Positions 7,883 through 55,929 of a stretch of DNA of 64,000 nucleotides are shown piece by piece. The notes beneath the pieces were generated by a model. That model did no database searches. It was not told the origin of the DNA and worked only from the letters and a program-made list of their open reading frames with translations. The position numbers were made by a program, and so were the translations under genes. Positions within the stretch are counted from its first letter, which is position 1. Every line of letters starts with the position of its first letter. Where the stretch lies: contig NC_091140.1 of assembly GCF_041381155.1 (NCBI RefSeq), positions 26,006,864 to 26,070,863 of the forward strand, given 5' to 3'. The DNA is from Argopecten irradians (lineage: Eukaryota; Mollusca; Bivalvia; Pectinida; Pectinidae).

Positions 7883-9469
7883 GGGAGAAAAATGAAGATG
7901 AGGTCTTTAGATGGAAAGGAAAGTACGTTTTGTGACATTCTCCATAATGCTGTACTTCAGGTGTGCAGGGAGAAGTACTGGGCCGATTCACCTGACTGGG
8001 AGGTTGATGGAGTCATTTGTATATCAGTGCCACACTCACAGGAACAACATGTGGTTAAAATTCATCAAAAATTCCCTTCAGATTCTAACAAACACTTTGA
8101 CGACAGGTGTTATGAATGTGATAGAAAACCAAAAGACTCATTATCTACAAATGAAACTTCAGATAGACATTTCAGTACAAGTGTAGAGGAGGAGGACTCT
8201 AGTTATCGTAATGTGTCTGTAATTGACTTGGAACATGCCAGTGCACAGCCAAACCCCACAGAGACTTGTGGCCGGGGAACAATCTCTCCAAATTTAACTA
8301 GTCCGGTCCGGGAACATGACCAAAACTCCCAAAAAAACTTTTATGCAAGTCCTGATCTCAGTGGTTTTGGGCCCAATGTACACAGGCAGAGAAGTGAACA
8401 GTTAAAAAATTCTAATAGTCAGTCACATTCTAAAACAAACAATCGTTCCAAAGATCAAGAACATTCCTCATCCTTTACAAGTCATTCAAGGGAAACAACT
8501 CCTCCACGGAAAAAGGCAAAACAAGCACCAGAAGAATACATTGTAGTTAAAGCTGAACCTGATGATGATGAGGATTTTGCTCTTCATATGGAATGCATCG
8601 ATGAAAAGATAAGTGAAAATTCAACAGACATCAAGGATGAGAGTACTCAGCGTGATTTGGCAGCAGAAACCCAAGAGGACATAAACTTTTTGTTAAATGT
8701 GGATGGTTCAAGTGCATCGCATCAGTATAACTCAGGAGATCGATCCTGGCCTCAGCGCCTCCCAACAAGTACAGTTACTAGTCAAATGGACACAAGTCTA
8801 TCTTCCATGGCTGGTCAAGGGACTCAGGGCTTCAGTAACCTGAATCTCCTTACCCATGGTGTAGATGTTGAGGACGGCACTATGAGACTGACCACCAGGG
8901 TCCAGCATCCACATATTATTGCTGGTCAAACTGACTCTAACACACCAGAACAGAGATCTATTCCAAGGCCAAGTGGGCAGGACTCGGCCGCAGCATCCAA
9001 TACAATAGGTAAGATCAACCAAAGTTTGTCCTTTTTTCAGAATACTTTCACAGATACACCTAGACCTGAAGGAAATGTTGAGACAGGAGTTGGGGGAGCA
9101 GTCAGCTCTGGTTCCATATATACCCCTAGGCCTGCTGGAAATGTTGAGACGGCAGACGGGGGAGGCACCAGTTCTTGTCCCCCGCCTACCAACAACTTTC
9201 GGTCTATTGGCAGGAAAAGACTGCAACTTAATAGGTCACGAATTGGGCTAGGACAACTTAAAACTACTGCAGGATTACTTCTGGATAAAAAGTTCTTCTG
9301 CAAATACTGTGGCCTTGGTTTTACAAATTGTGGCAACAAGAATCGCCATGAGCGCACCACATGTGGTGCCACCGTGTACAAATGTAATATGTGTTCCTCC
9401 GTGTTCAGCCGGACCGATAGCAGAGCGCGTCACATGTTAGCTCACCATGGTGTGTCCATCAGGGGATGA
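7883..9469 (+). CDS. Zinc-finger tail 1: long acidic/Ser-rich exon with two terminal zinc fingers
   Basis: A single open exon ending in TGA. Acceptor choice is ambiguous. TATATTTACAG|GGG at 7882 has the better pyrimidine run and enters the frame in phase 0, with an ATG at 7892. TCTTTAG|AT at 7910 enters in phase 1 and yields Asp, like the other tails. From 7911 the tail has about 519 residues. The first ~55 residues look folded (FCDILHNAVLQVC, WEVDGVICISV) and are not recognised. A long polar region follows, with a basic patch PRKKAKQ (possible nuclear signal) and VVKAEPDDDED, a good SUMO-type psi-K-x-E motif with acidic follow-up. The C-terminus has CKYCGLGF...H...C (C2HC) and CNMCSSVF...H...H (C2H2). 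AATAAA lies at 9670-9675. Likely a nuclear DNA-binding isoform of the tail cluster, though an independent gene starting at ATG 7892 is possible. Confidence 0.7.
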   Translation, partial: GRKMKMRSLDGKESTFCDILHNAVLQVCREKYWADSPDWEVDGVICISVPHSQEQHVVKIHQKFPSDSNKHFDDRCYECDRKPKDSLSTNETSDRHFSTSVEEEDSSYRNVSVIDLEHASAQPNPTETCGRGTISPNLTSPVREHDQNSQKNFYASPDLSGFGPNVHRQRSEQLKNSNSQSHSKTNNRSKDQEHSSSFTSHSRETTPPRKKAKQAPEEYIVVKAEPDDDEDFALHMECIDEKISENSTDIKDESTQRDLAAETQEDINFLLNVDGSSASHQYNSGDRSWPQRLPTSTVTSQMDTSLSSMAGQGTQGFSNLNLLTHGVDVEDGTMRLTTRVQHPHIIAGQTDSNTPEQRSIPRPSGQDSAAASNTIGKINQSLSFFQNTFTDTPRPEGNVETGVGGAVSSGSIYTPRPAGNVETADGGGTSSCPPPTNNFRSIGRKRLQLNRSRIGLGQLKTTAGLLLDKKFFCKYCGLGFTNCGNKNRHERTTCGATVYKCNMCSSVFSRTDSRARHMLAHHGVSIRG

Positions 9470-9475
9470 GATCAG

Positions 9476-10512
9476 GTAATTGTCATGCCCAACAACATTA
9501 CCTTCAGTTAGGTTTATCTAGTCAGGGTTTTATCACATATCCATATCATGCCATTCTTAATTAGTGTCAATTTTTCTGATTTAGAAAGCCATGGATCCCT
9601 GGATATTTCTTAATTTAAATTTGACATGTATGTGTATCAAATTTGAAAATCTTAAAATGAAAGTGGACAAATAAAGGTCTCATATATATATTTTTTTTTT
9701 GTAGTAATGTATATGAATGCAAATCCACCAATGGTGTGATGATTTATACTAGGAAAAAAAATGGTACCGGGTATGTTATTTGAGACAAGTAAACAGAGAG
9801 AACTGTATAAAAATATTCATGTACCTTCTATTTTATGATATACAGGATGGGAAATGATTTAGATCAATTGAAAATAATGTGCAGTATAATTTGTTTTAAA
9901 GCACATTGATTTTTTACCAACAAATTATCTTTTGAAGATTGAAATTTAGACTTAATTAAAATTACTCTTTGATTTGTTGAGATGCAGTTCACTGTTACTT
10001 GTGTTAAACTATTGATAAAGCCCTGATCATTCTATATAGATTTGCTTGCACACATATTTTATAATTGTTAACCTATAGCTATGTATCACATAATGAAATC
10101 AATGAAATCATGTGGTCTGCATTTGGTTTAAAAAAAAAACTGTGACGTCAGCAAAAAAGAGGTGAACAAGAAAATTTTCTGGCATATCAATGATTATGTA
10201 ATGTGCATTTCTACATAAGCACTGAATTCCTCAAAAATATCAATACCTCACATGTACTGTAACATTTCTAATTTCTATGATTTGCAAACATAAGTTGATG
10301 GTTTATACACAAAGATGCATTGTTGGGTTTGCGCTATTGATGTTTGCACTGAACTGACTCTACATCTGACAAGACATTTTATTGACAAGCTTACCGGTTA
10401 GTGGCTCTTTTATCACCTGGTGAACCTGCATATGTCTGTTATTAGAACAAGATATTAACTGCTACATGTCTATCAGAAACTTAGCATTTAAAAATCGTGT
10501 TTTTGTATTTAG
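9476..10512 (+). other. 3'UTR of tail 1, then intron/intergenic sequence
   Basis: AATAAA at 9670-9675 gives a likely cleavage site for tail 1. Beyond it there is no coding signal until the acceptor at 10511-10512. Confidence 0.5.
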
Positions 10513-11418
10513 ACAAAATGACGGAATTGAGTAATGTCCATTATTTGTGTTCGTGGTGTGGAAGAGGATTCAAGTCCAAGTCGGGATACTATGGTCACAT
10601 ACGCACCCATGGTCTAAACAAAGACGCTCCGTACAAGTGTTGTGGCAAACGCTTTTTCAGCCTTGCCAATTGGAATAGACACAGGTATATCTATATATTT
10701 CTTTTAAAAAATTGTAACATTATACTTCCAAGTTGCCAAATTATGATGGATTTATGAATATCTCCTTTGACATATATATGCATATTATGCATTTTTGTTT
10801 ATTTTAGATCCTATAAACATCCAGGGTCATTTAAGGATGAACCATATATAGAATGGTGAAAGTTGGGACAAAACTACCTAGCATAAGCTATATGTGCATG
10901 GTTCCACTGTTCGTACGGTTTTAAACTTACGACCCAGAGATGGAGGACTAGTAGCTCTTCATGGACATTTTAATCATGATCACCTAGCCGCTACGACCCC
11001 TATCTACCTAGTTAGCAATCAAAAGGCATCGGATACTTATAATAGCATGATAAAGCTACAGTGATATGAAAATATGCCATAAAAATTGACATTTTCTGCC
11101 CTTTCCCACACAAAGTTTCCAATATATTCAAAAATTTTATTCAGATGCAACAGACATGGCGAGATGGGGAAATTCCAGTGTGAAAAGTGTAAAAAGCGTT
11201 ACCCAAGTCAGGCTGACCTCAATAGACATGGCATGTTAGTGCACTCCAATCCCGAGTACCAATGTAATATTTGTGGTGCTAAGTTCATGATAAAAGACCG
11301 ACTAGATCAACATAGGGACACACACACTGGTGAAAAACGGTTCCGGTGTTCTAAGTGTTTCAAGCCGTACAGACATGACAGTAACCTGTACAAACACCAA
11401 AAAACGTGTAGCGGCTAA
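10513..11418 (+). CDS. Zinc-finger tail 2: two exons, five finger-like motifs
   Basis: Exon a is 10513-10684 (acceptor TTGTATTTAG, donor GTATAT) and exon b is 11145-11418 (acceptor TTATTCAG, stop TAA). The phases join exactly (AG+A = Arg). The entry is phase 1 and a preceding G would give Asp. The tail has about 148 residues and is almost all fingers: CSWCGRGF...H...H; an unusual adjacent-Cys motif YKCCGKRFF whose His residues straddle the splice junction; CEKCKKRY...H...H; CNICGAKF...H...H; and a final C2HC finger CSKCFKPY...H...C. A TGEKR linker joins the last two fingers, typical of DNA-contacting arrays. AATAAA lies at 11635-11640. The ATG at 10518 could start a protein, but there is no 5' exon or promoter evidence. 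Confidence 0.8.
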
Positions 11419-14245
11419 AATCTGAACCCAATATCGGATTTTGATTTCCAAAAATTTTCAAACAAATAATTGAAATCATTTCAACTTCTTTTTGTAAATT
11501 GTTTTATTAGATTTGTTAATGTTTCCTTGATTTCCAATTTGTGTTCATAAAGATATTTTTGCACATTTTTATCAGCTGAAAAGACATTTCCATCTTGTTT
11601 TATTTCCTTTATTGTTTTTTTGTGTTGCTGAAATAATAAATTGTGAAGCATGAATTTTCCATTTTTATCTCCAATCTATCGATCATCACCTAAAAACACA
11701 AACACACACACACAAAAACACAAATGTTTGCAGCAGGACTCTTGATAATAGTTAGTGTTTTGTCTAAACATGAAAAGGAAGACATTTGTTCATGATAACC
11801 ATCAGTACTCCAGAAAATTGTTTAGATTGCTTAGAATGTTAATAACAAAACTGACATAATTGCAGTACAAATGAGGTATTGATGTGTTTAGAATTTAACT
11901 CACGATCACCGTATAAATTAACTAACTGTATAACTGCAGGCCCCATGATTTTGTTTTCAATGTTCATAGATATACAACTACCTCAAGATTAATTAACTAT
12001 TTTTGAGTAAAAGTATACAGTATGTTGCATACAATGTATTTATTTGATAATTATAATTGATGTTTGAGAAAGAGAAAAATGCAATGAATACAAGCATTCA
12101 TAGTGAATATATTGATACGTCGTGCTAAAAATCAAACATACCATATACTGTTGTACATCAATACAAGAGTTTCAAGATACTAAAATGATGTAAACTGATC
12201 ATGCATGATCAGGAGTACTATTAGCCACTTTCCTGTGAGTGTGTCGTCAAAATGTCATATCAATAGATATATATGACGTCATAATCAACGGAAGGTGTTA
12301 CTATATATATACCAGTGTCATTTGGCATTTCAAAACCAATGTATTCAAAGGGTTCGGGATTTATTAGATTTTAATTTACTCTTTGATAATAAAACTAGCA
12401 TCATGATCAGTTTAAAAACAAACAAAAGAAATGTCACATTATAATTATTACATTACAAAGATAAATCACATGATCACAATTTGTTTGAGATTATGTGTAT
12501 CATTTGGAGTTAAGTCGACTTGGGTGTTTTCCAATCCAGCATAATTACTTTCTATTTGTGTGTTAAAGATTTATCTGCTTTTACAGACAAATGACACATG
12601 TACAATTGATACAAATTTGCAAGGGCAGATAACTCTGTGATATGCAAATTAAAGTACATGTACACATGCATATGTAAATGTATACATATACAACACAATG
12701 TTTCTGCGATGTAGTTGGTGTCCAGGATAGATGCTGTACTTGTTTGCTTGTATATATACATATGTACAATTCACTGCAATCATATGCATCTATATTTCTT
12801 TAATTAATCCATTTGATCTGACATGTAGTGTAAGCATTTAAAAAAAAAAAAACATCTGAAGATTACTGGAAATGTACTACCATGATATACATATCAATAT
12901 ATGTGTATACGTACAAAACTATGAACCAAAATATTGCTGTTATACATATAATTAAGTACCGGTATTGAATATATACATAGTTATGGTATACATGTGTTAT
13001 AAATTTAATTGCCTCATAACATCTTGTATAAGTTGTATGTAAATAAATTTAATTGCCTCATAACATCTTGTATAAGTTATATGTAAATATGACTATTTTT
13101 GGTTATTCTAATTATTGATAATATTGATAATGATAAGATATATGATGCACACCCTGAAAAACCGCTTGGATTTAAAAAATAAATATTGACAAAACAATTA
13201 TTTTTTTGGAACAATATTGTTGAAGTTGACTGTGAAATACAGTAGGTACTAATTGGTAAACTTTATTGGTGCACGTACGTGAATTATACCAATTTTACAT
13301 TATAAGTCAGTGTTTTAGTTATGATGAATCAAGAAGAGACCTCTAGATTTCCAAAATATGTGCATCTGACAATAAAATGGTCTGATTATATGCTTGTAGC
13401 TATATAGTCTATACTGATGTATTGGTTCATTGTCAGAGCAATCTTATGGTTTCAGTAATCATAATTCTGAAATTTCTATTTCCTAGAAATTTGGCAAAGG
13501 GGTACATCTGTATGAAATGGCTGTTATTCATTTCAAATTCATTGCATGTAGTCGATGAAGTATGTGCACTGTTTTATAACTGTTAACACCAGCTATTCGA
13601 GAGCTCAAAAGAAGTGCACACTTTTGAATTGCATTGGAATGAAGTATCAAAACATTACCGATACGGCTAAGAAGTCTACATTCAACAAATTATCAAAGTT
13701 TACTTGAGGGTTTAGATGTAACAAATTTTGTCAGTGAAAATATGTCATTCATTGTGAAATGAGGATAGTGAAATGTTGCACGATTTATGGTTCTTTCATA
13801 ATACATGTATAAGAAAAGCACAGAATGTCGTAGGTACTATACAGTATATACAACTGATGAACACGACTGCATATATTGCGTAACCTACTAAATTTCCGCT
13901 CTTTGACGTCTGAATTTCTTTGCCTTGAAGAAACACAAGACAGTGCATTGTAAGTAAACTTCTATTTCATATATCTTATAATTCAATTGAATTTTCCACC
14001 TTTAGCTCTACTAATTATTTATGATTTACATTTTCTAAAATATTTAGTTTCTTTATCACATTATATCAAGTAAACTCAAAGATGAACAGTACATGGTATG
14101 CTAATAGCTACAAGTATTCAGCATTTTCTCAAAGTTTATGTTTGAAATAGATAGTAATTAAGTAAATTGTATCAAAAATCTAACAGGAGGTTTGTATATT
14201 GCTGAAAGCTTAATTAAAATTTCTCTGAAACTCTCTACATTGTAG
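11419..14245. other. 3'UTR of tail 2 and non-coding spacer
   Basis: AATAAA at 11635-11640 ends the preceding exon. The rest is AT-rich with no gene. It holds a CACACA run (11697-11715) and a ~44-bp direct repeat (see 13000-13087). Confidence 0.5.
13000..13087. repeat. Two-copy ~44-bp direct tandem repeat
   Basis: AATTTAATTGCCTCATAACA and the following TCTTGTATAAGTTRTATGTA occur twice back to back with one difference. Confidence 0.8.
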
Positions 14246-15915
14246 ATAGGAGAACATCTGGTTTCTATGGCAACATGCCTCTGTCTGCCTTAAAGAGGAC
14301 TAAACAATACATGATGCAGCAGATTCATAGAAATCAGCTCCGGATGTTAACACCGAGACGAAAAGGAGGTCCAAAGCCTGCTGCCTACATTCGTCTGACA
14401 TTCTATCTCCTCCCGAGGGGTACGGCCATGCCCAAACTCACAAAGAATGACCCTGTCATAGCTCTACATCAACAGCAAGGATATGGTAAGCTGGGTTGTG
14501 TCTTTGTTTTTCTTTTAAACATTTTAAGTAATAATTTGATTAACAAATGAAAGTCAGTAAGTTGATAGTAGATTGTCTTGTAAAGATATAAAACATGATT
14601 CTTCAACAAAAATGCAAAAAAAAAACAAAACCTGCAAAGTTATTGAAAATTACAGTATCAAAGTACACATATCTTCTTCTCATTATAACCTGTTAAAATT
14701 TCTTTACAAAGTTACATCTGATTCTTAATGGACTAGATAAGAGATCTTGGTGTTGAATGAATTAAGTATATGCATTAAATTCTTGAATGCCTTACATTTT
14801 TACCGTGATTTGAATGTTTAAAAATGTACCGATAGTTCTATACCAGTATGAAAAATTGCCTGTGTTGTAGGTCATATACTTGTAATATATTTGTAATTTT
14901 GTATCCTTTAGGTTATCCATCCATTTACTACAATAATCGACCAGAAGTTGAAGGAAAGGCCATGGAAAGACACGTTATCCAACTCAACTTAACAGAGGCC
15001 ATGTTTAAAGAGCAGATCGAGGCTCTGTACCCTGTGTTGGCTGGGAAAAACTTCCGTCTCTTTACCATTGGCAAGGACCGACTGCTGCACCAGGCCCCGT
15101 TCAGACCCCTCCACTATAAGGCCCTGAATTACCGTGGAACTGTAGTAATACGCATTGTGGTAAGTATTTATCATGTCTGTATAGCCCTCACAATGACATG
15201 AGATGATAAGTACAATGTCAAGCAACATAAAAAAATTGTTATCAGAACTTTATATTGTATTTATGGGAGAAAATGAGCAGATGTCAATTTAAAGAAGAAA
15301 AAAGAAAGAAAAAAAATTACTGTTCCAATCTAATTAAAATTAGACTTGTAATTCAGCTCCACTATGATGCTCTATGATATACTCCAATACAATGATCTAA
15401 TAGCTCCCTGTTCGGGGTCACCTCAGCATGGCCCCTATGGTAAGCCAATCAAGGTGTCGTCTATGGAATTGTCTGTGTGATTGAATCTCTCTGAAGTATA
15501 ATTGGCCAATAGTACGTCTTGAGATGTTCAGATTCTAGGCCACGGGTCATGCTTAGGTGACCTTGAATGGGGAGTAGTTAAATCTTATACTGGAGCGTAT
15601 CATAGAACATAGTAGGTAGTGGAGCGGAATTGCAAGATGATTGTCACTAAAAAACAAAATGATTTTTGAAAATACAAGAAATATCCTTGACAACTGGGAA
15701 ATTTCTTTGAATATCCAAATTGGAATTTTTCCAGAAAATTGTTATTTTAATCAATCTGATAAATAATTAACCAAATGACAATATTCCTGATTATTATTCT
15801 GCTACATATCAAATAATATGTTTACTGTGATTGTGTTGTATTTGTGTCTTTGTAGGATGATGACGCTAGAATGTTGTCAATAGAAGCAGCGTTTGGTTTA
15901 CCGATCCCAGTGTGA
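14246..15915 (+). CDS. Tail 3: three-exon module with an unrecognised domain (no zinc finger)
   Basis: Exons are 14246-14485, 14912-15159 and 15856-15915, with acceptors TTGTAG, TCCTTTAG and CTTTGTAG and donors GTAAGC and GTAAGT. Phases join exactly (1/1, then 0/0), and the entry is phase 1 with Asp if a G precedes. The product is about 182 residues. The N-terminal ~50 are basic (LKRTKQYMMQQIHRNQLRML, PRRKGGPKP). There follow a segment AAYIRLTFYLLPRGTAMPKL, a middle domain (HVIQLNLTEAMFKEQIEALY, GKNFRLFTIGKDRLLHQAPF) and the strand-like end YRGTVVIRIV. The beta-alpha-beta-like pattern vaguely recalls ubiquitin-fold domains found before animal HECT-like proteins, but I would not assign it. An AATAAA lies at 16422-16427 and another near 16331. 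The tight, multi-exon, phase-consistent ORF argues that it is real. Confidence 0.75.
15345..15636. mobile_element. Foldback MITE inside tail 3 intron 2
   Basis: The left end CTTGTAATTCAGCTCCACTA matches the reverse complement of the right end, CTTGCAATTCCGCTCCACTA. Inner pairs CTATGATATACTCCAATA / TACTGGAGCGTATCATAG and GGTCACCTCAGCATGGCCC / GGGTCATGCTTAGGTGACC extend the fold. It is about 290 bp and non-coding. Confidence 0.75.
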
Positions 15916-16421
15916 ATCTACTGATGGATATCTGCCCACTACAACTATCAAAACTCATGTTAAAGGACATTATATGTATAACATTTTACTTACTGTATTT
16001 ATGATGTTATACCAGCTGTATTTACTGATATATACTCAATTGTGACATTTTAATACATTGAACTATTTGAGTGGTAAACACATTCATATATTTAGAACTG
16101 TTTTGTTTGTATAGGTTTGTTTGTGAAGCATAAATTAGAAATGCATTTACAAGCTAGAATGTCACAAAATTTGAAAATATGCATTGTATATATATATACA
16201 TATTTTATTTTATTTCTTTTGATACTACTGAAAAAATATTTTGCTTGTTTTAAAATCAACCTTAATCATTATACATATAGAAAATGTTTTGTTTATAACA
16301 CAGGTAGTTAGTGGAATAATTTGACTTGTATAATAAAAAAAATTCTCCATTAGATGCCTTCAAGAATTTTTTTAGAAGCTTTTGTTGTCAAATTGTATTT
16401 CTGTGTTTTATTTAGAGAGCA

Positions 16422-16427
16422 AATAAA
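16422..16427 (+). terminator. Polyadenylation signal of tail 3
   Basis: AATAAA about 510 bases after the stop codon, followed by a TTGT-rich stretch. Confidence 0.5.
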
Positions 16428-18933
16428 GCTACTAAGATTTGTGAACATTGTCAATATTGTTATTTAAATTGATTGAGTTTGATAACGCCCCAAGAGGCTA
16501 TAAACCAAATTTGGGAATGGTGCTCCTTGTAGTTTTACAAGAAATACCTACCCACATCTTTATTTAATTTATTTATGGAACGGGCTTAATATAAGTTTTT
16601 TAACTTGTGCCCAATCCTTTTTTGTATTGTAAAAATTGCAAATAAAATATGTTTAAATCAATCTTTATTTAGACAATGCAATCAAAATATACAGTATTCG
16701 ACCCAGTAAGCGCCCATGTCCCTATAGGCGCCCCTCCCCATTTTTGAGGCCTTGATTTAAATTCCCCAGGCATAAATAAAGACCAAAACTACACTAAACT
16801 GTATAGATTTGCAATAATTTCGTCTTATTAGCACTTATTCAAATTTTAAAATGCCCTGGGTACTTATTGGGTCGAATACAGTATTACAAAATACAGTGTA
16901 ATACCTGTTTAATATTGTAGCTCAAGCTATTTTCTAACAGCCATGGTCATATAAGAATGTGCCAGATTTAGGAGATGGAAAAAAGTCAAAGTACACAAAG
17001 AAAACCCACACACCTCTGATAAGTACCTGGTAACATGTTGGCTTTGAGGGTAGTTGCCCAACATAACAGTTCCACTATACAAGAAGACACAAGATGAACA
17101 TACCACAGTCTCCCAAAACACACGCCTTGCACTACTAACATGTGACATACCGCATACATGGTAGACCTTCCTTACATGACCCTGGCTGTTAATGGGATGT
17201 TAATTAATCAAACAAATACCACTGTAATTCATTTGGTGTTCATATTACACATGAAAATGAAATGTAAAAGTAGTTTAATTTATCCCAAAAATCAAAAGAA
17301 AAAAAAGTAAATCTAAAAAAAGTCAAACTGTTGAAATTAAATAGCAAGAAGAAAATACCATGACCATTACAGATGGCATCCTAAGCTATTGAACGTTGAA
17401 TATTTGGTCACAACCTACATAAAAGTTTTTGGCATGTTATAGTAATTTTAAAATATCTGCAAGGATCATGATTTTCTGTGCTTTTTTATGTCTTTTGTCA
17501 GATTTTTTTTCAATACATGTTTTGTTTAGTTTTCTGTATTTTCTTGTATCATTTTACAATGAATGACATATTAAAATCACCTATATGTATATAAAGCCTG
17601 ATAACATCTGCCAATGTAAATTTTAAAAAAAAAAAGGGGGGGGGGAGATATTTTGATCACATGCATAGTTCTCACAATAGAATATCACAGATACGTCAGC
17701 TACTTAAATGAATATCATCACTACCAAGTATGAAGAAGAATAAGATTTTTCGTTGTTTCTTGGACGCCTGAGCTGATTAAGAAGTGGACATTTAGGGAAT
17801 TATGGTAGGTATTTATAAACATTCAGATTTTATTTTCTGTTTTATGTTTGCTTTGAAAAGACTTGATAATAGCAAGGTTTGTTGGCAAGCTTTGTTTATT
17901 TCATCCTCTTTGGCATTCAGAAAATGGTCCATTTAAGCAGATTGTTTCAAAAAAAAAAATCCATACCTACTTATCTGTGACAATGCTCAAGAACAGATTT
18001 ATTGATGTTCCATGCAGGTGTATATTTATTGGCATTTGCTCACAATCTGGAACAACAGATTAAAATCTGTTACCTTGGTTTAGCCATTTTTGTGTTGACA
18101 TTTTTTTTTTTTTTTTGTATACAGGTATTATAAGCAACACTCATAATTTCACCTTGTGTTACAACATAATGAAAGAGAATAAAAAAAAAACACTTCTGCA
18201 ACATCAAGATTTACTGCTCATTAATGTGATCTCTGTAGAATTGTTTACACAATCTGTTTAATACAGGTGATAAACATCCAAAGTATACTGTTAAGAAAAA
18301 GTTGCCAATAACATCAGTACATGAACATAATTATCTTGATGGTTTGTAAGTGTATACCTAATCATGTAAATGCATGGTATTGATAAATCCACGGTTTGAT
18401 GCGGAGGTTTTGTTTTGTCATTTGTTGTACCTGAAGGCAGATCTATGTGAGGTATGTATAATTAACCAAGATACACATGTACCTCTTTGTCATACTCGGT
18501 TAAAAGGGAAAGTTTTAAAATTTGGTAGTTTAATAAATTTGACACATAATTGTTTGGTAGCACTATAAATTACACACACACATATTCAATTATAATATCT
18601 ATAAACTGTCAAACTCCGCATACTGATATGTGCATTATGATTCCAGTTATGGAACTGTGGTTTACATTTGAAACAAAACTGAAATCATGAATTTTTAATA
18701 AGTAGGGTAAACTGCACACAACTGATGTGTTAAAATGTGACTGTGTGTTTTTTTTATTATTAATATTATTATGTTGGCACTGTCATACCTGCAGATTTAT
18801 GTGCATATCTTATATTGCGATATGCACCGATACATCTACTCTGGGAAGGATGTGTCTAAATAAAAAAGATAATGAGTGATGCTATCACAGGGTAAAAAAC
18901 TATGCTATTGATCAGAGATTGTTTATGTTCCAG
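16428..18933. other. Non-coding spacer
   Basis: Apart from the MITE at 16689-16886 and homopolymer runs (A/G at 17622-17646, T at 18102-18116) nothing gene-like was seen. Confidence 0.5.
16689..16886. mobile_element. MITE, copy 1 of a family with GTATTCGACCCARTAAG ends
   Basis: The left end ACAGTATTCGACCCAGTAAG and the right end CTTATTGGGTCGAATACAGT are inverted copies. Other copies lie at 24847-25114 and about 48943-49171. The size is about 200 bp and it is non-coding. Confidence 0.75.
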
Positions 18934-21014
18934 GCAGATCAGGTAATGGCTATAATAATCGGAACGATCCATCCAACAAACCTGAGGGGTACCAGGCCCA
19001 GTATCATTGGCTACCTACACCCAGATTTGGTGAGTACACACAAATGTTGTATATTGTACACTACCGCTGGTGATCTTCATGTATCATATATATATTTTAG
19101 CAGGGATATCTAGTTAGAATCGCGAACATCTTTACCAACATAATTGTGGTGTAAATAAACAGTTATACCATAAATCTTAATGTGCATTACCTACATAGGT
19201 AATGTTAGATCATTTTGTTTGATAAATTTTGTGTCACTTAACTCCGAAAAATAAAATTTATACTTGAATTTATGGTGTGATATCTTACATTAGAAAAATA
19301 ATTTGAACACATGGCATTCATAATATAAAAATTATAAATATAATCAAATTATAAAGGGAGATAACTTAATAAGTAATACATTTAGTTCCATTTTTTGAGT
19401 TATAGCTCAATTTCAGAGTCCTGTTATATTATTAGAATTAATATAGAAATTATTTTGTGTGATTTCCAGTAGTAAAACGAACTCCAGCCAATTTACCACA
19501 AAGAGGCTTTGTTGATCCTGAGATAGCAGCAAAACACAAGGTAAACTGTCAGAATTCATGGTATAGTACGGAAATCTTACATTAGCAACTTCTGCTAGCA
19601 AATCAGTTTGTTTTAACAGCCAGGGTTTTTTAGGGATGTGTAAGGTTTAGGTTGTGGAGCAAGAAGTGGAGGGCATGTACATAGTAATTTGTTTGGACAT
19701 CTTAACCACTTGGCTGTTGCTGCCCCAAATCTGTGATTTATAAATTATATAAACACTAATTAAAAAGACCTTTTTCAAATTTTCAAGTTGTATTTGTTCT
19801 ACTTTTGATGTGAAAACAAAATAAGTTAAGATATACTGCTACTGTGCTGTCACATTAAAAATAAGTGGGTGTAAAACTGTTCCTTGAGATGTAATTAACT
19901 GAATTTGTTACAGATGGTTGAGTTGTCACCGGGCACCAAAGTATACGTGTATCAGAGTGACAAGGACATGGCAATGAAGCATGGCCTGGACCATAAACTG
20001 TCGGCACAACAAGGATGTCCAATCAGGGACGGTACGAAGATTGCACGTTACGTGATGAGTCTGTTCTGGTCGGAGAAGGAACTTATAGGACATACTATCA
20101 CCCCTACTCCCAGGAATAAAGATCTGGTACCGCTCGACATCAACCTACTGTCAGCTATTCTAGGTTAGAAAGTATTACAGGCTTTAAAGTCTATAGAATC
20201 CTCTAGTTCCTAGAAATAAGATTACTAGAATCTTTAACAGGGTTGTGCTAAAATAGACTTTAATATCTTTTTTGAAAGATTTTAGAGGGTCAGCACTGAA
20301 AGCAGTATGCTTGCCACCTGCTGATATGCCAACATCTTGCAGAATTTTCTGATGTACTTGTCCGACTCCTTTTTGATTATCTCCACCCATACTCTAATCA
20401 AAATGATCAAATTTCATTTTGTTTGGAATAATTTTCAGTGTCATCAAGATTAGATGGGTATGCCACTAAAATGATGATGTAATTGATATAGTTACCATAG
20501 GTACATCACATGTACTAATGATATCACAAAATGATTTTGTGCTTGCATTGAAGCCATCTTCTATCTCTGTGCAAGATATTCATGTGTCTGTCATGAGTTA
20601 AAAAGATTGATTCTGTAGTTAAGTGACTCTGTTTTAGGTGCGAGTTATGAAGATTGAGACTGTATTTTACTGACTCTGTCTTATATTCGTGTTTTTTTAG
20701 ATTTCTGTGTCCATGTTAGTAGCAGTACGAGAGCCCAGGTGAAAGAAGCCCTCAGGAATAAGGTGACAGCTGCCAACACCCGGGCAAAATGTAAAAAGCC
20801 CACTACACAATCGATTCCAGACCATCAAACCTTCCCATCTCTGCAGTCCAATGATCAGCAAGTCTACGTCAATCTACAATCCAGTCCTAGTGATCAACAG
20901 GCCTTCACCATTCAACCTCAAGATATTTTTCCTGATCAGGAATTCAATGTACGACACTCATCTCATTATGTGTATAGTCTTACTTTCAATAAAAGTACAA
21001 GTGCATGTATTTGA
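18934..21014 (+). CDS. Tail 4: BEN-domain C-terminal module (four exons)
   Basis: Exons are 18934-19029, 19470-19540, 19914-20163 and 20701-21014 (TGA). Acceptors are ATGTTCCAG, TTTCCAG, TTGTTACAG and TTTTTTTAG, with GT donors throughout. Phases join exactly (1, 1, 0, 1), and the entry is phase 1, with Gly if a G precedes. The tail has about 243 residues. It opens with a basic Asn-rich segment (GRSGNGYNNRNDPSNKPEGY, PTPRF). A BEN domain spans roughly residues 95-165: IRDGTKIARYVMSLFWSEKE, then LDINLLSAIL, and after the last intron STRAQVKEALRNKVTAANTR. BEN domains are helical modules that bind DNA or chromatin partners in nuclear repressors. The last ~70 residues are Gln/Pro-rich and disordered-looking. 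No clean AATAAA follows; the nearest (20988-20993) overlaps the coding end. It sits between zinc-finger tails on the same strand. Confidence 0.8.
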
Positions 21015-21897
21015 TAGTGATTTCAGTGTATGCTTATTCCTGTGAAGATGTTGTTCATTGTTTTCTTTATTATCAAAGTTTGGGAAAACATGTCATGAAA
21101 TGATTCTCTTACGAAGGACTAATCTATGTACTATAAAACAACTTTATTTTTGTGAAAACAAAATTTTGCATCTTTTTTATTTTCACAAATACATAAAATT
21201 CACCATCAAAGACTCTTCTGAAAGTCATACATTCATATTCATTTTATACAATTATTCGCGAATCATTTGAATTTGCGTTAGAACTCTCACCTCAAACTTA
21301 TGCAAAACATCGTTTCTTGTGAAAATTAAGTTGTTTACATAAAGATATGTACTGATCAAAACTGAATTCAAATCTGAATAATTTCACCTAGTTTGAGATT
21401 TCAGAATTTGTTTAGATTTTAAATTTAAATAAGTGTGCATTTGTTTAAGAATGTAGTTTTTATTTTGTCCTAAAACCTGTTTTTTGGTGCAATTGTGATA
21501 TTTTACAACACATCTCAATATAAAAGCGTATAAAATGTTAAGATGAAAAAAGAATCTTATTGGATACTAACAAAGCCTTGTTATATATAGTAGATACAAT
21601 GTGGTCCTCATATGATTGCTATGCATGCTATTCTGAAATGGGTAGTTTAAGGTTTTATAGGTGTACTTGATGCTGAATAATCTAGGTATATTGTATCATT
21701 TCTGTACATCAATACATGTATTGAAATTGCAGCCAAATTATACTCTTATTATGTAATTTTTCAATGACTCAGTCTCACTATTATTCTTCATTCTCAATTT
21801 GTATAAATTCTGCTGTAATACCGGTAAAGGTGACTATAATGCTGTTGGCACATGTATTTTTTATCTCACTAAGTGTAGGCCTGTTTATATATTACAG
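21015..21897. other. 3'UTR of the BEN tail and spacer
   Basis: AT-rich, with no coding signal. The acceptor at 21896-21897 (ATATATTACAG) begins the next tail. Confidence 0.5.
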
Positions 21898-22775
21898 ATG
21901 ATGCCACTTTCAAAGCCATGATGATGATAAAGGCGGAGAAATTGGATCCGGACGAGCTCTATAGTATACCATGTATAGATGAACCTTCCACTGGAGATGA
22001 TGATTACAGCTATAAGATAGAAACTGGGGACTACGGTGATCATGACTTTCACTCCGCCCCTGCACCCTACAATATCGAAGATCAAGGGAATTTATCACGT
22101 GGTACCAGTGTTAGTAAAGGAAAGAAGACAGCTAAGTACCGCAGACGAGAGTATACTTGTGATTTCTGTGGTAAAGTTTATCTCCATAGGTGTAGACTTC
22201 GGGACCATATCTCTGAATATCATTCAAAAGAGAATGTAGAATCTCCCATTTGTAAGGAAGAATCACAACTTTCCACTAATCCACTGAACACCAAATCTCA
22301 GCTAGAGAGACTTTTAACTGAAGACTTAATGGTTGGTAAGAAAGGCAAGACTGAAAGTAAGAAGGTTAAGAGAAAACTTAAATCTTGTCTTTCACAGAAA
22401 AAGACTACGAGAAGATCTAAAAAACAGAAGGTTCCTGTGCAGGAGTTAACTGGTGATCCAATTGCTAACGAGAGTCAGCAAGATCAAATCAGACTCGAGG
22501 TGCTGAGTTACCAGAACGATGATGAGATATATCACCGTCAGGTGGTATTATCAGGAATAGGTGACCAGACTGATTATACATCCAAATCAAACAATACTGA
22601 TTCTGAGGTGGTCAAACAAAAGGTTTCCGCGACAACAACAGACACATCAGGAAATGCAACAGATGATGCTAATATTCAGTTTTGGTGTAAATGTGGAAAA
22701 TCTTTCACATCTCTGTCTACTTTTGTGTTACACAAGTTTCCATGTGAAGCTGCCATAAAAGCAAAGGAAAATTAA
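21898..22775 (+). CDS. Zinc-finger tail 5: single exon, two fingers
   Basis: The acceptor ATATATTACAG enters in phase 1 and a preceding G gives Asp (D-DATFKAMMMIKAEKLD). The tail has about 292 residues. MIKAEKLD is a psi-K-x-E SUMO-type motif. An acidic region follows (EPSTGDDDYSY). A C2H2 finger CDFCGKVY...H....H lies at about residues 88-109. A Lys/Arg-rich stretch (KKGKTESKKVKRKLK, TTRRSKKQK) is a likely nuclear signal. The exon ends in a reduced CKCGKSF...H...C motif (Cys-x-Cys, C2HC) near residues 263-283. The stop is TAA and AATAAA lies at 23327-23332. A protein could start at ATG 21918, but the open frame continues to the acceptor and no upstream start or promoter is evident. Confidence 0.8.
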
Positions 22776-24037
22776 GTTCTAGATGAGCTACACCAATATT
22801 AGGAAGGTTTATGTAGAGAGTTTTATGTCTGAATGAATCATATTGAAAATTTGAAACTCTTGTGTATCATGACTCAAAATTTTTTTACTAAAATTAACGT
22901 TAAAAAGAAACTCGCACCTTTAAACTATATACAATGGGCAGGATTCCACACAAAAGGATGCTTTTTCTAAAATGGACATTTAACCACATTCCATCACAAG
23001 ATTATCTCCTATTTCATTTCTCAATTGTAATTGTTTAAAATGTTATTGTTTGATGTCAAAATTAAGATAAAAATGAGATATTTACACATATCAGTAGGAT
23101 TAGAATTAAAATTCTGTAATAATGACCACAAATTGCACCTGATATTCAATATATTTGATAATAGATTTAGCAAATCATTTTCATTCAACTTTTTTTATGC
23201 CCTCTAATTATATAAATTTCTACTAGTTTTCAATGCAAGCCTTTGATGATTGTTTATCAGAAACGCATTGTAAGATATGCAAGTTGTGGAGACAAGTGCT
23301 ATGTTAAATTGTTGTAAATAGAATTTAATAAAGATATTTTCCTTAGATAAAGATATATTGTGTGTTTTTTCGATATCAGTGAAATCATTATCAGACATTA
23401 AGCTGTTGGTGTTGATCTCCTAGCACAGATAAACAGTCTTATGTCATGACGTGTTTACCAGTAAAGTACAATGTTTTATAAATATGATATGGGTCAAAGG
23501 TCATGGGATATTGTTGAGCCCATTGTACATGATTTACACACAAATATGGCACTGTATGAAATTTTGACAATATGCTATGCACTTCTAAATATTTGACTAG
23601 CTTACTGTTGAAAGCGCTTCACACTTTCATCAAGATATTTTATTTGTATTCATTATTTAGATAACATTGTGTTACATCTATAGAAGCATGTGTGATTTAG
23701 AGATTTGTCTGTATCATGAGTTAAGTGTAAAAAACCGCTTTCCTGATGCATACATTTTACCCAGAATTAATATTTAAACCAGGATTTCTACTAAATTTTG
23801 CTGTATTGAAAATGGGCAAATTGTCTTTTATGTTTTATCTTATTTTTATTTTCATCTTGTCAAATTACGGTCCTTTCGGCTATAAAAGATAATTTAGTTG
23901 TAACTAGAAGTTTGTGACATACAAATGCCGTTGTTACGGTGATTGATGGGATGGCCTAAGAGGATTTATTGACTGTGTTGTGTGTGTGTGAGACCAAGAA
24001 GAACCTCCTGATGTGTTGTGTGTCTTGACTATTACAG
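22776..24037. other. 3'UTR of tail 5 and spacer
   Basis: Polyadenylation signal AATAAA at 23327-23332. No gene was seen between it and the next acceptor. Confidence 0.5.
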
Positions 24038-24570
24038 ACTCTACCTCGCTGCTCCGTGATCTTGCCACTAAGTCGGGCGCCAGGAAACCCGTTCCTATGT
24101 TTAAATCACTGCAACCTTCACAAGCACAGCGGGGTCGCCCAGTACAGTTTCCATGGATACCAAAAGCGGACATAAAAAAGAAGTACAAATGTGAAGTATG
24201 TGGGAAACAGTTTGCACAACAACAACACTACCTCGGACATACTAACGTCCATTTTGGACGTCGACCATTCAAATGTAAAATCTGCTCTGTTGGGTTTCCA
24301 TATCAGTCACAGCTGGCCGCTCACAGAAAATCATGCAAGGAACCAGGTGAAAGTTCACCATCACCAAATAGAAGTACCTGCCAGATTTGCTCCAAGTCCT
24401 TCAATGAGCATTTCAAATTGGTTCGCCACATGGTACAAGTGCACCATGGTCAGAACTTGATGGCCAGTAAAGAGTTTGTCTGTACTTGTGGAGCCAAGTT
24501 TGATTGGCATGCGGCCAAAAAATCGCACTGCATGTCATGTCCTAAAGCTTCTCGGAAAGACAAGGCTTAA
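24038..24570 (+). CDS. Zinc-finger tail 6: single exon, four fingers
   Basis: The acceptor GACTATTACAG enters in phase 1 and a preceding G gives Asp (D-STSLLRDLATKSGARKPV). The tail has about 177 residues. The first ~50 are basic and polar, followed by CEVCGKQF...H...H, CKICSVGF...H...C (C2HC), CQICSKSF...H....H and a closing CTCGAKFDW...H...C motif with Cys-x-Cys spacing, as at the end of tail 5. The stop is TAA and AATAAA lies at 24635-24640, only ~65 bases later. No ATG lies near the acceptor in frame for the N-terminal region, which supports its being an internal/terminal exon rather than a stand-alone gene. Confidence 0.82.
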
Positions 24571-24846
24571 GGTAAAGTTCAGACAGGCTAGTTAGTAAAG
24601 TAATGAAAGTATGGCATGAGTAGTAAAAACAGAGAATAAATGAGGATACCATGCAACATATCCTCATGGTTTTTTGAGTGATATTTCATGTTACATCCAA
24701 AAACATCTTGATAAACTAAATATACAACATCTTTAATACTTGCCTATAAATTAAAATATAAAGATAGTTTTCCTCCGTTGGAAGGGATTTTGATATTTTT
24801 TTTGCACTTTGCATTCCTGTATGCAAATCTCAACAGAACTCTTGCT

Positions 24847-25114
24847 ACCGTATTTGACTCAATAAGCACCCCAGTCCCTATAACTGATGGGGATACCGAC
24901 CTTCTCCATTTTTTGAGTCCTTAATTTTGCTAGCCTCAAATGAAATGCAGATTGAAAGTATGAAAACCATAGGTTTCTTTGATTTCTCTTTGCAAATTGA
25001 TTTATAGCTTACATGGTGCAATACATTTATGAAACACATGTCCAAATTTGGTTGTGTTAACGTAATTTTTTTTCATTTAAAGTGTCCTGGGTACTTATTG
25101 GGTCGAATATGGTA
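24847..25114. mobile_element. MITE, copy 2 of the GTATTYGACYCARTAAG family
   Basis: The left end ACCGTATTTGACTCAATAAG is answered by CTTATTGGGTCGAATATGGT. It lies between tails 6 and 7. Confidence 0.75.
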
Positions 25115-25793
25115 TGTTCATTTCCAAAACTATTCTCCTTTTAATCACAAGTACATTTTAATCTCTCAGAGTTACTTCCCTCATATCCCTGAGATGGTTA
25201 ATGTTTAGTTACTAGCAATACACAATGAGGTATTGTGAAATATACAATGTTGGTGGCTTACTATTGTTAAAGCAAACATGCATGCCACAAATATTTTATT
25301 GATGTGTAATGGAGAATCTGAAAATTTGTTTTAATTGAGAATTGCTGTAAGAAATTTGTTTTTCATTCAAGTGTTGATGTTTTCTAACTGTCAGTGTAAG
25401 ATTTATTTCTATATTCCATATATAACTGGTTAGATTTTCTCAGTTATTGTTAAAACTTCTTAAGTTTACTTATAATAAACAGTATACCATTGGACAGCAT
25501 ATCAGTAGTGTAATTTACATGAAAGCAATATACCTGGTAATTCTTAACTCATCACTATGAACTGCTGTTTTGTTTGAAATTGCAGATTTTTGTAAAACAG
25601 GGCTGAAACTAACCAATTACAAACTATCATTTCTATATATACATGTTTAACGGAAAATGTTGATCAATTTCAGAAAATATGACAGGATTTTATTGTCACC
25701 TCAAAAATCCATCAATTTTTCTCAATATGTAATTTGTGAATGATCAAGTAAAAGTTGTGTTACGGGGAATGACACTCTTTCTTTCTTTTACAG

Positions 25794-26491
25794 AGAGTCA
25801 TTATGGTTGTATGGAAACAGAACAAAGAAACAGAAGTGGAAAATCTATGGATACAACAGGATGGGACGACTCTAAACAAAATTTTGATAGCATGTTTAAC
25901 TGGAGGGATAATTCCCAGCACCGAGAGATCTCACCAGCAGTGTTATGTCAGAATTTACAGCTAGGTGACCCGGAGTCATTACATATGGGAGATGTATCCT
26001 CCCAAACTACTACAGCCAACGAGTTACAGCAATTCACATCACATCACAAGGCGAAATTAAAGAGGTCACAACAAGGACAAATTAGCTCTGAATTGATAAC
26101 CAGACCACAACAAGGAGAAACCAACACTAAAGTCTTAAACATTTCCGACATTGCAGCAAATTCTAAAGGACCATATACGCCAATCTATACCATAACCAAT
26201 ACAAATCGTTCTACAGAAAATCCATCAGGGAGCTATTCTTTTCAGTGTAGAATTTGTGGGAAAAGCTTTCAGTCTTTTAAAAGCATGTCACGGCATAAAC
26301 GTGTGCACAACAAGTATCGTTGTAAACAGTGTAACCAGTGCTTCAAAAATGACATTCTTCTACAGAAACACAATGATGAACGCCACTCTTTCTTCAGGTA
26401 TTCTTGTGCTTCCTGTGGCAAACTCTTCGGACGCAAATTTTCTCTCAAGCGACATGAAAAGAACATTTGTAATGTTCCACAGAAATCTTAG
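25794..26491 (+). CDS. Zinc-finger tail 7: single exon, three fingers
   Basis: The acceptor CTTTCTTTTACAG enters in phase 1 and a preceding G gives Glu (E-SHYGCMETEQRNRSGK). The tail has about 232 residues. The N-terminal ~145 residues are polar, Gln/Ser/Thr-rich and probably disordered. The last third has CRICGKSF...H...H, CKQCNQCF...H....H and a closing C2HC finger CASCGKLF...H....C. The stop is TAG and AATAAA lies at 27341-27346. ATG 25812 is a possible start, but the open frame and strong acceptor favour use as an alternative last exon. Confidence 0.82.
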
Positions 26492-27999
26492 GTCTTAACA
26501 TCATTTTTGGACCGCCCAAAATTCTTCATAGATTTCCGGTTCTATTGATCATAAACTGATGGGGCTTGGAGTACCAGTGTATTGTGAACTTTGTGAGGCT
26601 TGGGTATCGGTTAAATCCTGGAGAAGCAGTCAACTATAGCTGGATACATTGCATAGAACAATTCCTCTTCGGTTATTATTCCTTTCTTTGCCCTGTGAAG
26701 GCTATAATGTAAACCTGCTCATACTGATGTGATTAGATATTCATATGCCCACGTTAGTCCTAAAGGCTGACTGTCTAACACCAAAGGACATTACACGCAA
26801 AAAAAAATTTCTCTTTGTGTTACTATGTAAGATATTTATAATATTTCTTGGGTATTTACAACTGCAGGTCGTGTAGTGCATATCATCATGATAAAAAAGT
26901 CAAATTTCATTATCTAAAAATCTGATGAAATGATGATCCACCAAGGTTTTCAATTATCAAGAATATTTTTGGTTTCCAAAATATTCTAGTCTTCTCAAAG
27001 GATTTCCATGTCCAATCAACCTGCAGAGATAGTGTGATTTACTGTTGTAATGTTATAATAGTTACTGGGGAAATGTTCTAGTCTTTTGAATTTATTGTGA
27101 TTTTGGTATCATTATTCAGTAATGCATGACAATTTCATCTTTGCTGGCTTCCTAACTTTTTTTTATTACATTATATAATCATAAAGTAATTTTGGTTACG
27201 GATGAATTATAAATGTTTTTGTTGTTTTATTTTCCCACAGGACATATTTGTGTTGTTTACTCATGTACCATGATCTACATAAATGTATAAAAAAAAAAAT
27301 GGGATTCGGGTGTTGATTATCTTTTAGTTTGACTCAGTAAAATAAATTTAGTGTGTAAGACTTCATTTCTATAAGTTATTTAAAGTTGGACATTGATTTA
27401 AATTTCTAATCTTTTTATTATTACAAACCAAACATTCAATTCATTGATTTCGAGATACTAAAACATAGTGGGTATAGTATGATTTACTGGTTAATGTCTC
27501 ACATTCTGGTGATTGTTATGTCACAAAAATCACGTCAAAGTATGACACAAGAATCGATGGAAGGTGGGACTAATTAATTGTAAATCATACTTAACACATT
27601 GTTAAGCTATCTCAAAACCCTCGTATATTTTACATATGCTTTGGAAACTGAATGTAGCTAACATGTATTGAAATAATATTAATATAATTTATCCTGTATC
27701 TGAAAAGTCCAGAATAGAAATGTATTAAAATTATTAAATTCAATACTGCAAATAAGTAGTTTCATGTATTCACTGAGAAAATTAGCAGGTGCCACAAGAT
27801 TAGGGAGTTATCAAGCAAGAATAAACCTAAACATTCCATGATTGATAGGGCATTTAGTGGAACTTCATATGCACCCAAACATTGTATTGGGAAGAGGGCA
27901 TTTAGTATAATTCATATCCATCCTTTCCAACTGTGATATATGGATGTAGGATTTTGTTATATTGTGATGATTACACTGATGACTTAATGACAATTTTAG
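26492..27999. other. 3'UTR of tail 7 and spacer
   Basis: AATAAA at 27341-27346. No coding signal was found beyond it. Confidence 0.5.
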
Positions 28000-29335
28000 A
28001 TCTCCATAGTGATGCACTAATGAAATGTGACGTTTCTCTATTGTGATGACCTATGACGTTTCTCAATAGTGATGACCTATGACGTTTCTCAATAGTGATG
28101 ACCTGTGACGTTTCTTCATAGTGATGATTCTCCATAGAGATAACCTATGACGTTACTCCATAGTGATGATCTATGACGTTTCTCCATAGTGATGACCTGT
28201 GACGTTTCTCCATAATTATGATCTATGACGTTTCTCCATAGTGATGACCTGTGACGTTTCTTCATAGTGATGATTCTCCATAGAGATAACCTATGACGTT
28301 ACTCCATAGTGATGATCTATGACGTTTCTCCATAGTGATGACCTGTGACGTTTCTCCATAATTATGATCTATGACGTTTCTCCATTGTGATGACCTGTGA
28401 CGTTTCTCCATAGTGATGACCTGTGACGTTTCTTCATAGTGATGATTCTCCATAGAGATAACCTATGACGTTACTCCATAGTGATGAGCTATGACGTTTC
28501 TCCATAGTGATGATCTGTGACGTTTCTCCATAGTGATGACCTATGACGTTTCTCCATAGTGATGAGCTATGGCATTTCTCCATAGTGATGACCTGTGACG
28601 TTTCTTCATAGAGATAACCTATGACGTTACTCCATAGTGATGAGCTATGACGTTTCTCCATAGTGATGACCTGTGACGTTTCTCCATAATGATGATCTAT
28701 GACGTTTCTCCATTGTGATGACCTGTGACGTTTCTCCATAGTGATGACCTGTGACGTTTCTTCATAGTGATGATTCTCCATAGAGATAACCTATGAAGTT
28801 ACTCCATAGTGATGAGCTATGGCATTTCTCCATAGTGATGACCTGTGACGTTTCTTCATAGTGATAACCTATGACGTTACTCCATAGTGATGAGCTATGG
28901 CATTTCTCCGTAGTGATGACCTGTGACGTTTCTTCATAGAGATAACCTATGAAGTTACTCCATAGTGATGAGCTATGGCATTTCTCCATAGTGATGACCT
29001 GTGACGTTTCTTCATAGAGATAACCTATGAAGTTACTCCATAGTGATGAGCTATGGCATTTCTCCATAGTGATGACCTGTGACGTTTCTTCATAGAGATA
29101 ACCTATGACGTTACTCCATAGTGATGAGCTATGGCATTTCTCCATAGTGATGACATTTTACGTTTCTCTTTAGTAATACACCCTACGGCATTTCTCCATA
29201 GTGATGATCTGTGACGTTTCTCCATAGTGATGACCTGTGACGTTTCTTCATAGAGATAACCTATGACGTTACTCCATAGTGATGAGCTATGGCATTTCTC
29301 CATAGTGATGACATTTTACGTTTCTTTTTAGTAAT
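28000..29335. repeat. 26-bp minisatellite, about 50 units
   Basis: The basic unit is close to GATGACCTATGACGTTTCTC plus CATAGT. Variants include GATGAGCTATGGCATTTCTC and GATAACCTATGACGTTACTC. Most units contain TGACGT. Combinations of variant units recur every few units, giving a higher-order pattern (for example TTCATAGAGATAACCTATGA blocks). Long open frames on the minus strand through this block are by-products of the repeat. Confidence 0.9.
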
Positions 29336-29659
29336 ACACTGCTGACCATGAGGATTTTTTAATGAGACAATGATTCGATAATGACTTATTGTGACTTTCC
29401 ATTGTAATGAACCTATAAAGAATTCCTGCACTGATGGAATAATGATGATTTTCCATATGGCGATTCTTTGATTGAATAAGACAACCCTCGTGTTTCCCAC
29501 GTAGATGATATGGACACCAATGAATGACCAATGTATACATACATCGAATACTGCGTTAACCTTAACAGCATGCGGCCACAATATATCGGGTTATTGTCCG
29601 TTCTATTTTGTTTACTTCATACTTACACAGATGGTAAAAGGTTTACTGTTTAATTATAG

Positions 29660-29775
29660 GAACCCAGAAGCGCTTTGGAGAATCTACATTTGGAGATAGA
29701 GCCGACAAACGTCTGAGAGTTACCAAGACGGGGCCATGTAAAACCCCCTTTGCACAATACGTTAAAGGCCAATAG
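29660..29775 (+). CDS. Possible tail 8: short basic C-terminal exon
   Basis: The acceptor TTTAATTATAG enters in phase 1 with Gly if a G precedes, as in the BEN tail. It gives 38 residues, GTQKRFGESTFGDRADKRLR then VTKTGPCKTPFAQYVKGQ, and TAG. AATAAA lies at 30157-30162. It is Lys/Arg-rich and matches no family I know. It is the last plus-strand candidate before the calnexin gene. The phase agreement supports it; its length does not. Confidence 0.4.
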
Positions 29776-30480
29776 GCACCCATCTAGCAGAAATTTTGCG
29801 GACTTTCAAATGCTTCTTCAACATAGGTAAACCGTTGATAGTCATATGCCTACCTTTAGTGCTATATAACGAACTGTAAATCTGGCATCTCCTTCAAGGA
29901 TTTCCTGATGCAGAAGGCCTATCTGATTTTTGATGCATTTTGAAGGACTCTGCACCAGACTCAAATTTCTTTTCCAGCCGCCGATCTTTGTTATAAGACA
30001 CACAAGAAGGTCCAAGGGCGACGGAAATTTCAATCATCAGCTTCTTAAATGAACAACAAAGTTTTGAGCGAGCTTTTGTTTTTGTCGACGCTTCTACCAA
30101 TCATGAATGCATTTTTTATTGTGGGCCACGTGCACGTGCATGTCGATCAAGAAGACAATAAAATTATTTTCGAACATTATTCGTATATCTTACAAGTTTC
30201 TGTAAACGGCAACAAACAAAATTTTATAACTTTTGCTGCTACTTAGTGTAATTACTGTTCATTTAGTCACGTGAAAACATATCTATCTTCATATAAAAAA
30301 CTTCCCTATACCCGTCTGACGTCATTATTCAACAAAATACGCCGATGTCCTTTCATCATCTGTTTTTGTCGAATGTTCAATTTATATCATTCGCGCACTG
30401 ATAAATGTTTGGGACATTTTATTAAAAAGAAATAACAGTATATCTGAAAGTCGAGATCATTCATTCGGACATGCTGCAGG
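29776..30480. other. Non-coding spacer
   Basis: Contains AATAAA at 30157-30162 and the palindrome-like GCCACGTGCACGTGCATG near 30125. No gene was seen. Confidence 0.4.
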
Positions 30481-30605
30481 CTAGTCCGCTAAACCTGCCT
30501 ATATTATTAGGCTTTTTTAATTTTTTTTTTGCCTAATATATATTAGGCAAAAAAAAAATAATATATTAAAAAAGCCTAATAATATAGGCAGGTTTAGCGG
30601 ACTAG
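30481..30605. mobile_element. 125-bp foldback element with CTGCAGG target duplication
   Basis: The arms run from CTAGTCCGCTAAACCTGCCT to AGGCAGGTTTAGCGGACTAG and pair along nearly their whole length, through TATTATTAGGCTTTTTTAA to the AT-rich centre. CTGCAGG flanks both ends (30474-30480 and 30606-30612). It is non-coding and would extrude a long hairpin. Confidence 0.85.
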
Positions 30606-30840
30606 CTGCAGGCATAACATAACATTTTGTCTTTCCCGAAATAACGCAATAGTTAATATAAAACATGTAAATTGAGATGCTCTATTGATGCTTTGCTGCC
30701 TTGCAGTTAGAAAAGTACTTTTTGCGGCGGTTGCATGGTCCTTAGATTTCTTCTCTTTCTAATGATTATTCTTCCAAACGTCTCCTTTGGTACTGCCCAA
30801 CTTTTGGCCTTGATTTGAGCACTTGAAAACTGTATTTTTT

Positions 30841-51490: not shown

Positions 51491-55929
<4,439 letters not shown>

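Follow-up and report, generated by a model that had tools for sequence, protein, structure and literature searches.

The 64,000-nucleotide stretch of the bay scallop (Argopecten irradians) genome analyzed here (C7:26,006,864-26,070,863, of a genome of 845.8 Mb; the window) very probably carries one rightward transcription-factor-like gene, in which a single shared exon is joined to alternative terminal tails. As far as the public protein models go, this exon is almost certainly joined to several tails. Loci that give transcription factors many alternative tails are, to our knowledge, a speciality of arthropod BTB genes. What is new here is the multi-tail layout with an unrelated front domain; this novelty is lowered by the isoforms already standing in public databases, as uncharacterised models. 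The counterparts of the locus are LOC117328731 in Pecten maximus, LOC110455972 in Mizuhopecten yessoensis, and LOC132551146 in Ylistrum balloti. Public models of the scallop locus are annotated as uncharacterised or with assorted zinc-finger names, and no published account of it was among the matches listed for the literature on mdg4 and lola in molluscs and bivalves and on scallop BEN or zinc-finger isoforms. Coordinates are window positions throughout, values below 1 or above 64000 denoting the C7 flanks on either side. Exon structures were derived from the sequence and from public protein models.

The row comprises seven same-strand modules (M1 to M7), which lie where a preliminary description, made from the letters of the DNA, had placed them. 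Four in silico joins are identical to public isoforms of A. irradians: M3 gives X5 (P0003), M4 (its four exons joined to part of M5) gives X4 (P0002), M6 gives X6 (P0004), and M7 gives X2 (P0005). Amino acids 1-372 of these isoforms (P0002-P0005), encoded from ATG 7892, are identical, and the proteins diverge afterwards. In a comparison set of 16 scallop proteins (four from A. irradians, seven from Pecten, four from Mizuhopecten, and one from Ylistrum), the tail switches directly after a shared SN(T/A)I in 15; the same switch point thus serves the Pecten and Mizuhopecten isoforms, and Ylistrum gave the read-through form only (P0001, 81% identical over the 152-amino-acid M1 tail). M1 is an open frame that runs from its acceptor through to its stop (7883-9469), across whose length donor 9008 is the sole G/GTRAG site; it consists of the shared exon and a tail made by read-through, and is not merely a tail. 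Its acceptor sits 9 bases 5' of the ATG, which makes its entry phase uninformative and suggests a further, candidate 5' non-coding exon farther left. The preliminary description had also proposed a shared exon with a final G in phase 1 that splices to each tail in turn. The isoforms bear this exon out, although it is encoded at 7892-9008 and not to the left of the window.

The reading phase of the tails points the same way. Modules M2 to M7 all enter in phase 1, and with the donor G their junction residues are Asp (10513), Asp (14246), Gly (18934), Asp (21898), Asp (24038), and Glu (25794), reproducing those listed in the preliminary description; a weak eighth acceptor at 29660 is also in phase 1 (Gly). 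All 12 spliced tails, half of them inside the window and half beyond it, fit phase 1, which is more than chance would give; free phases give 6e-6, a value that is only indicative because the six outer acceptors were each chosen from 1-8 candidates, not all of them phase 1. Independently of the DNA of this locus, the first tail residue is compatible with a first-base G (A, D, E, G, or V) in all 15 spliced isoform proteins, against a background of 0.25, and is in fact G, D, E, or V; these proteins are not 15 independent cases, since they represent nine distinct tails with their orthologues.

A cluster of separate zinc-finger genes, with their own promoters and a phase shared by accident, would accommodate the in-frame ATGs inside M2, M5, M6, and M7 as well as the poly(A) hexamers that follow the stop in M1, M2, M3, M5, M6, and M7 at a distance of 64 to ~850 bases. 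Such hexamers are weak evidence, because AATAAA comes about once per kb on the plus strand. Tails begin at acceptors rather than at ATGs, those 15 proteins attach their tails to one shared exon, and the four joins match isoforms exactly, so that separate genes appear very improbable. The hexamers also qualify the earlier statement that each module has an acceptor, a stop, and mostly its own AATAAA: it stands for M2, M3, and M5 to M7 and, as to the hexamer, for M1, whose acceptor precedes the ATG of the shared exon, but M4 has only the AATAAA at 20988 (beyond the exon-4 donor but ahead of the stop that the unspliced form would use), the next being at 23105.

The closest known layouts are those of Drosophila lola and of mod(mdg4) in Drosophila and Lepidoptera. 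lola is described as combining a common BTB N-terminal region with at least 20 unique C-terminal exons, joined in cis and in trans, and its tails mostly carry C2H2 or C2HC fingers, which three isoforms are described as lacking (PMC1947980). mod(mdg4) has constant 5' exons and, in Drosophila, more than 30 isoforms (PMC12692577, PMC4667647); its mRNAs are all reported to be trans-spliced, some with tails on the other strand (PMC12692577). With both, the scallop locus shares a constant 5' coding part followed by alternative 3' exons in one phase, and zinc-finger tails that are often of the C2HC type. It differs from lola in that no BTB was found, in its single shared coding exon, in the read-through tail, in DUF3504 and BEN-like tails, and in an exon read in two frames. 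FLYWCH, the domain of most mod(mdg4) tails, was not listed in the eight window proteins scanned, a scan that left out five opposite-strand finger tails. In mod(mdg4) some tails lie on the opposite strand; in this scallop assembly six lie on the minus strand, but the arms of an inverted repeat bound them, and their orientation may come from an inversion or from misassembly.

The four exact isoform matches and the common switch point uphold the preliminary description in its reading of a lola-like layout outside arthropods. Its placing of the shared exons to the left of the window did not hold, and its suggestion of BTB is not supported. An exon-by-exon search of the genome for BTB (PF00651), which an intron-split domain could escape, listed 132 matches from the best 150 of 196 candidates scored, and those listed nearest to the locus (26.0 Mb) on C7 are at 21.1 and 31.75 Mb, with none in between. 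The isoform proteins start at the ATG within the shared exon. In addition, a survey that searched Mollusca reports the TTK-type BTB, to which lola and mod(mdg4) belong, from arthropods only (PMC11426971). A true lola/mod(mdg4) locus with its BTB exon far upstream would have the same constant 5' part, followed by variable 3' exons that carry fingers of the C2H2 and C2HC types (PMC1947980); set against these results, it is hardly credible. Because no BTB was found, the locus is, as far as sequence can tell, lola/mod(mdg4)-like in layout and not a member of that family. Between -140 kb and 134 kb, a search for another copy of the shared exon (expectation value, E, up to 1) returned none but the paralogue described below.

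The conserved front domain reads CDILHNAVLQVCREKYW...EVDGVICIS...VVKIHQ and is followed by an extended region in which no domain was recognised. Nothing in the shared part scored above the Pfam cut-off, and the front domain had no convincing family or solved-structure match in Pfam or PDB. A search with amino acids 1-80, which reaches only proteins of 330-1050 amino acids that share 5-letter words, gave 19 candidates, of which 16 proteins, all from scallops, had an E of at most 10. Weak matches of the front domain, M3, and M4 (CopK, Trp_syntA, tRNA_int_endo_N, a cas2 protein, an enoyl reductase, and an epimerase) were dismissed as chance. AlphaFold2 models of the M3 and M4 isoforms reached a mean predicted local distance difference test score (pLDDT) of 28.6 and 29.8, respectively (alignments of two and three sequences), with all residues below 50; the front domain is drawn as a helix and two strands, which carries little weight at such values.

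Among the tails in the window, finger motifs occur in M1, M2, M5, M6, and M7, and the last finger is of the C..H..C form in M2, M5, M6, and M7, as the preliminary description had noted of several. C2H2 fingers score above the Pfam cut-off in M2 (spliced, zf-C2H2 3.8e-18), M6 (1e-8), and M7 (2.8e-9) only; those of M1 and M5 were recognised by motif and fall below it. No M2 isoform was among the 16 scallop proteins, and the M5 tail is 47% identical to that of Pecten X1 (P0007). M3 has no convincing Pfam or PDB match. The BEN label of M4 comes only from the UniRef name of Mizuhopecten P0015, there being no BEN match in Pfam or among PDB sequences. For M4 exon 2, acceptor 19473 was picked over 19470 because P0002 has a single Val. 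Unspliced at 20948, the M4 frame continues past AATAAA 20988 to a stop at 21012-21014, and a form ending there is possible. The final codons of M4 lie within M5 and are read there in another frame (Table 1). The same two readings recur in Pecten, where P0008 ends in VMPLSNP and P0007 begins with GDATFKSM; Pecten thus has both readings as well.

Table 1. Positions of the shared exon, the tails, and associated repeats
Feature	Position	Strand	Remarks
Shared exon	7883..9008	+	acceptor 7882/7883; ATG 7892; 372 amino acids; conserved N-terminal domain at about amino acids 14-62
Shared-exon donor	9008/9009	+	ATAG then gtaagatc; phase 1, final G
M1 read-through tail	9009..9469	+	linker plus one C2HC and one C2H2 finger; stop 9467-9469; AATAAA 9670
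M2 exon 1	10513..10684	+	C2H2 finger; donor within a finger, so that the intron splits it
M2 exon 2	11145..11418	+	fingers; stop 11416-11418; AATAAA 11635
M3 exon 1	14246..14485	+	without known domain
M3 exon 2	14912..15159	+	middle of three exons
M3 exon 3	15856..15915	+	stop 15913-15915
M4 exon 1	18934..19029	+	BEN-like tail
M4 exon 2	19473..19540	+	rival acceptor 19470, three bases earlier, adds one Val
M4 exon 3	19914..20163	+	BEN-like region
M4 exon 4	20701..20948	+	donor 20948/20949, then joined to M5 acceptor 21898
M5	21898..22775	+	one exon; C2H2 and CxC..HxC fingers; AATAAA 23327
Dual-frame stretch	21898..21921	+	M4 final 7 codons and stop (MMPLSKP, stop); M5 start in the other frame (DDATFKAM)
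M6	24038..24570	+	one exon; four finger motifs; AATAAA 24635
M7	25794..26491	+	one exon; three finger motifs; AATAAA 27341
Minisatellite	28026..29325	+	26-bp unit, ~50 copies
M8	29660..29775	+	remnant of the DUF3504 tail's 5' end, cut short and out of frame, with an intact acceptor
Inverted repeat, left arm	29775..42743	+	9.5 kb at 98.9%, 3.9 kb at 93.9%
DUF3504 tail	111523-112542	minus	A. irradians
Inverted repeat, right arm	112593-128023		beyond window, compared with left arm; arms 13-15 kb

Six further tails, one with DUF3504 and five with zinc fingers, lie beyond the window at 97-112 kb on the minus strand, between the inverted-repeat arms. All six have phase-1 acceptors and open frames, and four of them follow the shared exon in proteins of other scallops; a tail search (proteins of 285-908 amino acids) gave five proteins, none from A. 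irradians. We infer an inversion between the repeat arms, genuine or assembler-made, since flipping the segment by its coordinates would align all 13 tails in one row. The eighth acceptor is tied to the DUF3504 tail: positions 29587-29731 and the opposite-strand positions 112593-112449 are 100% identical, and M8 was accordingly rejected as an independent tail. The minisatellite just before the left arm contains 35 copies of TGACGT.

These opposite-strand tails raise the question of trans-splicing, in which the shared exon and the tails would come from separate transcripts and all six would stay in use. Their acceptors and frames are compatible with it, and there is the example of Drosophila mod(mdg4), whose tails lie on both strands and are all described as joined in trans (PMC12692577, PMC4667647). 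Of its two layouts, those of flies and mosquitoes, a link to structural rearrangement is reported, and cis-spliced relatives are described in beetles, Hymenoptera, and Daphnia (PMC4667647). However, trans-splicing is unneeded because the arms bound the flipped segment, so that either a recent inversion or a misassembly would be enough; no A. irradians protein came from the tail search, and cis joining is all that the Pecten and Mizuhopecten isoform models require, automatic models presumably using one strand. We therefore regard trans-splicing as unlikely, and the likely mode of joining as conventional alternative splicing in cis together with alternative polyadenylation. Equally doubtful is that a real inversion in the bay scallop left stranded tails that are trans-spliced, which would be an independent mod(mdg4)-like origin outside insects.

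The DUF3504 open reading frame of A. irradians matches its domain at 1.6e-4 and 22.2 bits, under the Pfam cut-off of 29.7, whereas that of Mizuhopecten P0016 exceeds the curated cut-off (2.1e-8). The A. irradians tail also ends earlier than, and unlike, its Mizuhopecten counterpart, and may be in decay. DUF3504 is traced to Crypton tyrosine recombinases and is reported from the host genes KCTD1, KIAA1958, QRICH1, and WOC/ZMYM, KIAA1958 having two such domains in separate exons of two isoforms (PMC3212892). The scallop locus is likewise a host gene with a Crypton-derived domain, but here it is one among ~13 alternative tails.

A paralogue lies head-to-head with the locus on the minus strand (-4188 to -2161), as a frame of 676 codons from stop to stop. 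Its front domain is 42% identical to that of the locus over 55 amino acids, and its two M1-like fingers are 47% identical over 58. Because front domain and M1-like fingers stand there in one frame, the ancestral form is probably the read-through one; a new donor and captured tails would later have built the row. The paralogue has one donor-like site of its own, and the search for tails there covered similarity to the known tails. A shorter inverted repeat (205-625 against -2144 to -1725, 95.7%) relates the 5' sides of the locus and the paralogue.

In the scheme that we propose, transcription runs rightward, the shared exon supplies the common N-terminal part, and its phase-1 donor is joined to one terminal unit with a phase-1 acceptor and a stop; where the donor is ignored, the M1 zinc-finger tail follows. 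The tail would set the binding target, the tails thus amounting to alternative binding specificities, and the front presumably sets recruitment or pairing. Tails would have been captured after the ancestral read-through form, one of them from a Crypton transposon.

Elsewhere in the window, a polyubiquitin gene (52924-55929) consists of 13 head-to-tail repeats in one frame, one with an extra residue, and fragments resembling a reverse transcriptase of the long interspersed nuclear element (LINE) type were recognised by eye only on the minus strand at 3225-4130. tRNA and Rfam scans of the window gave no matches.

With an unrelated front domain so far seen in scallops alone, the multi-tail layout would have arisen twice, which points to selection for the design of a constant front with swappable tails itself. 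The locus would offer a natural test of tail capture, and of rearrangement forcing trans-splicing, since a probable ancestral form is adjacent, one tail is transposon-derived, one exon is read in two frames, and the row is rearranged in one species, against relatives in whose models the same tails are joined. If the inversion and trans-splicing were real, the gene would have been caught soon after rearrangement, while its inverted repeats are still nearly identical and its relatives join the same tails as ordinary isoforms.

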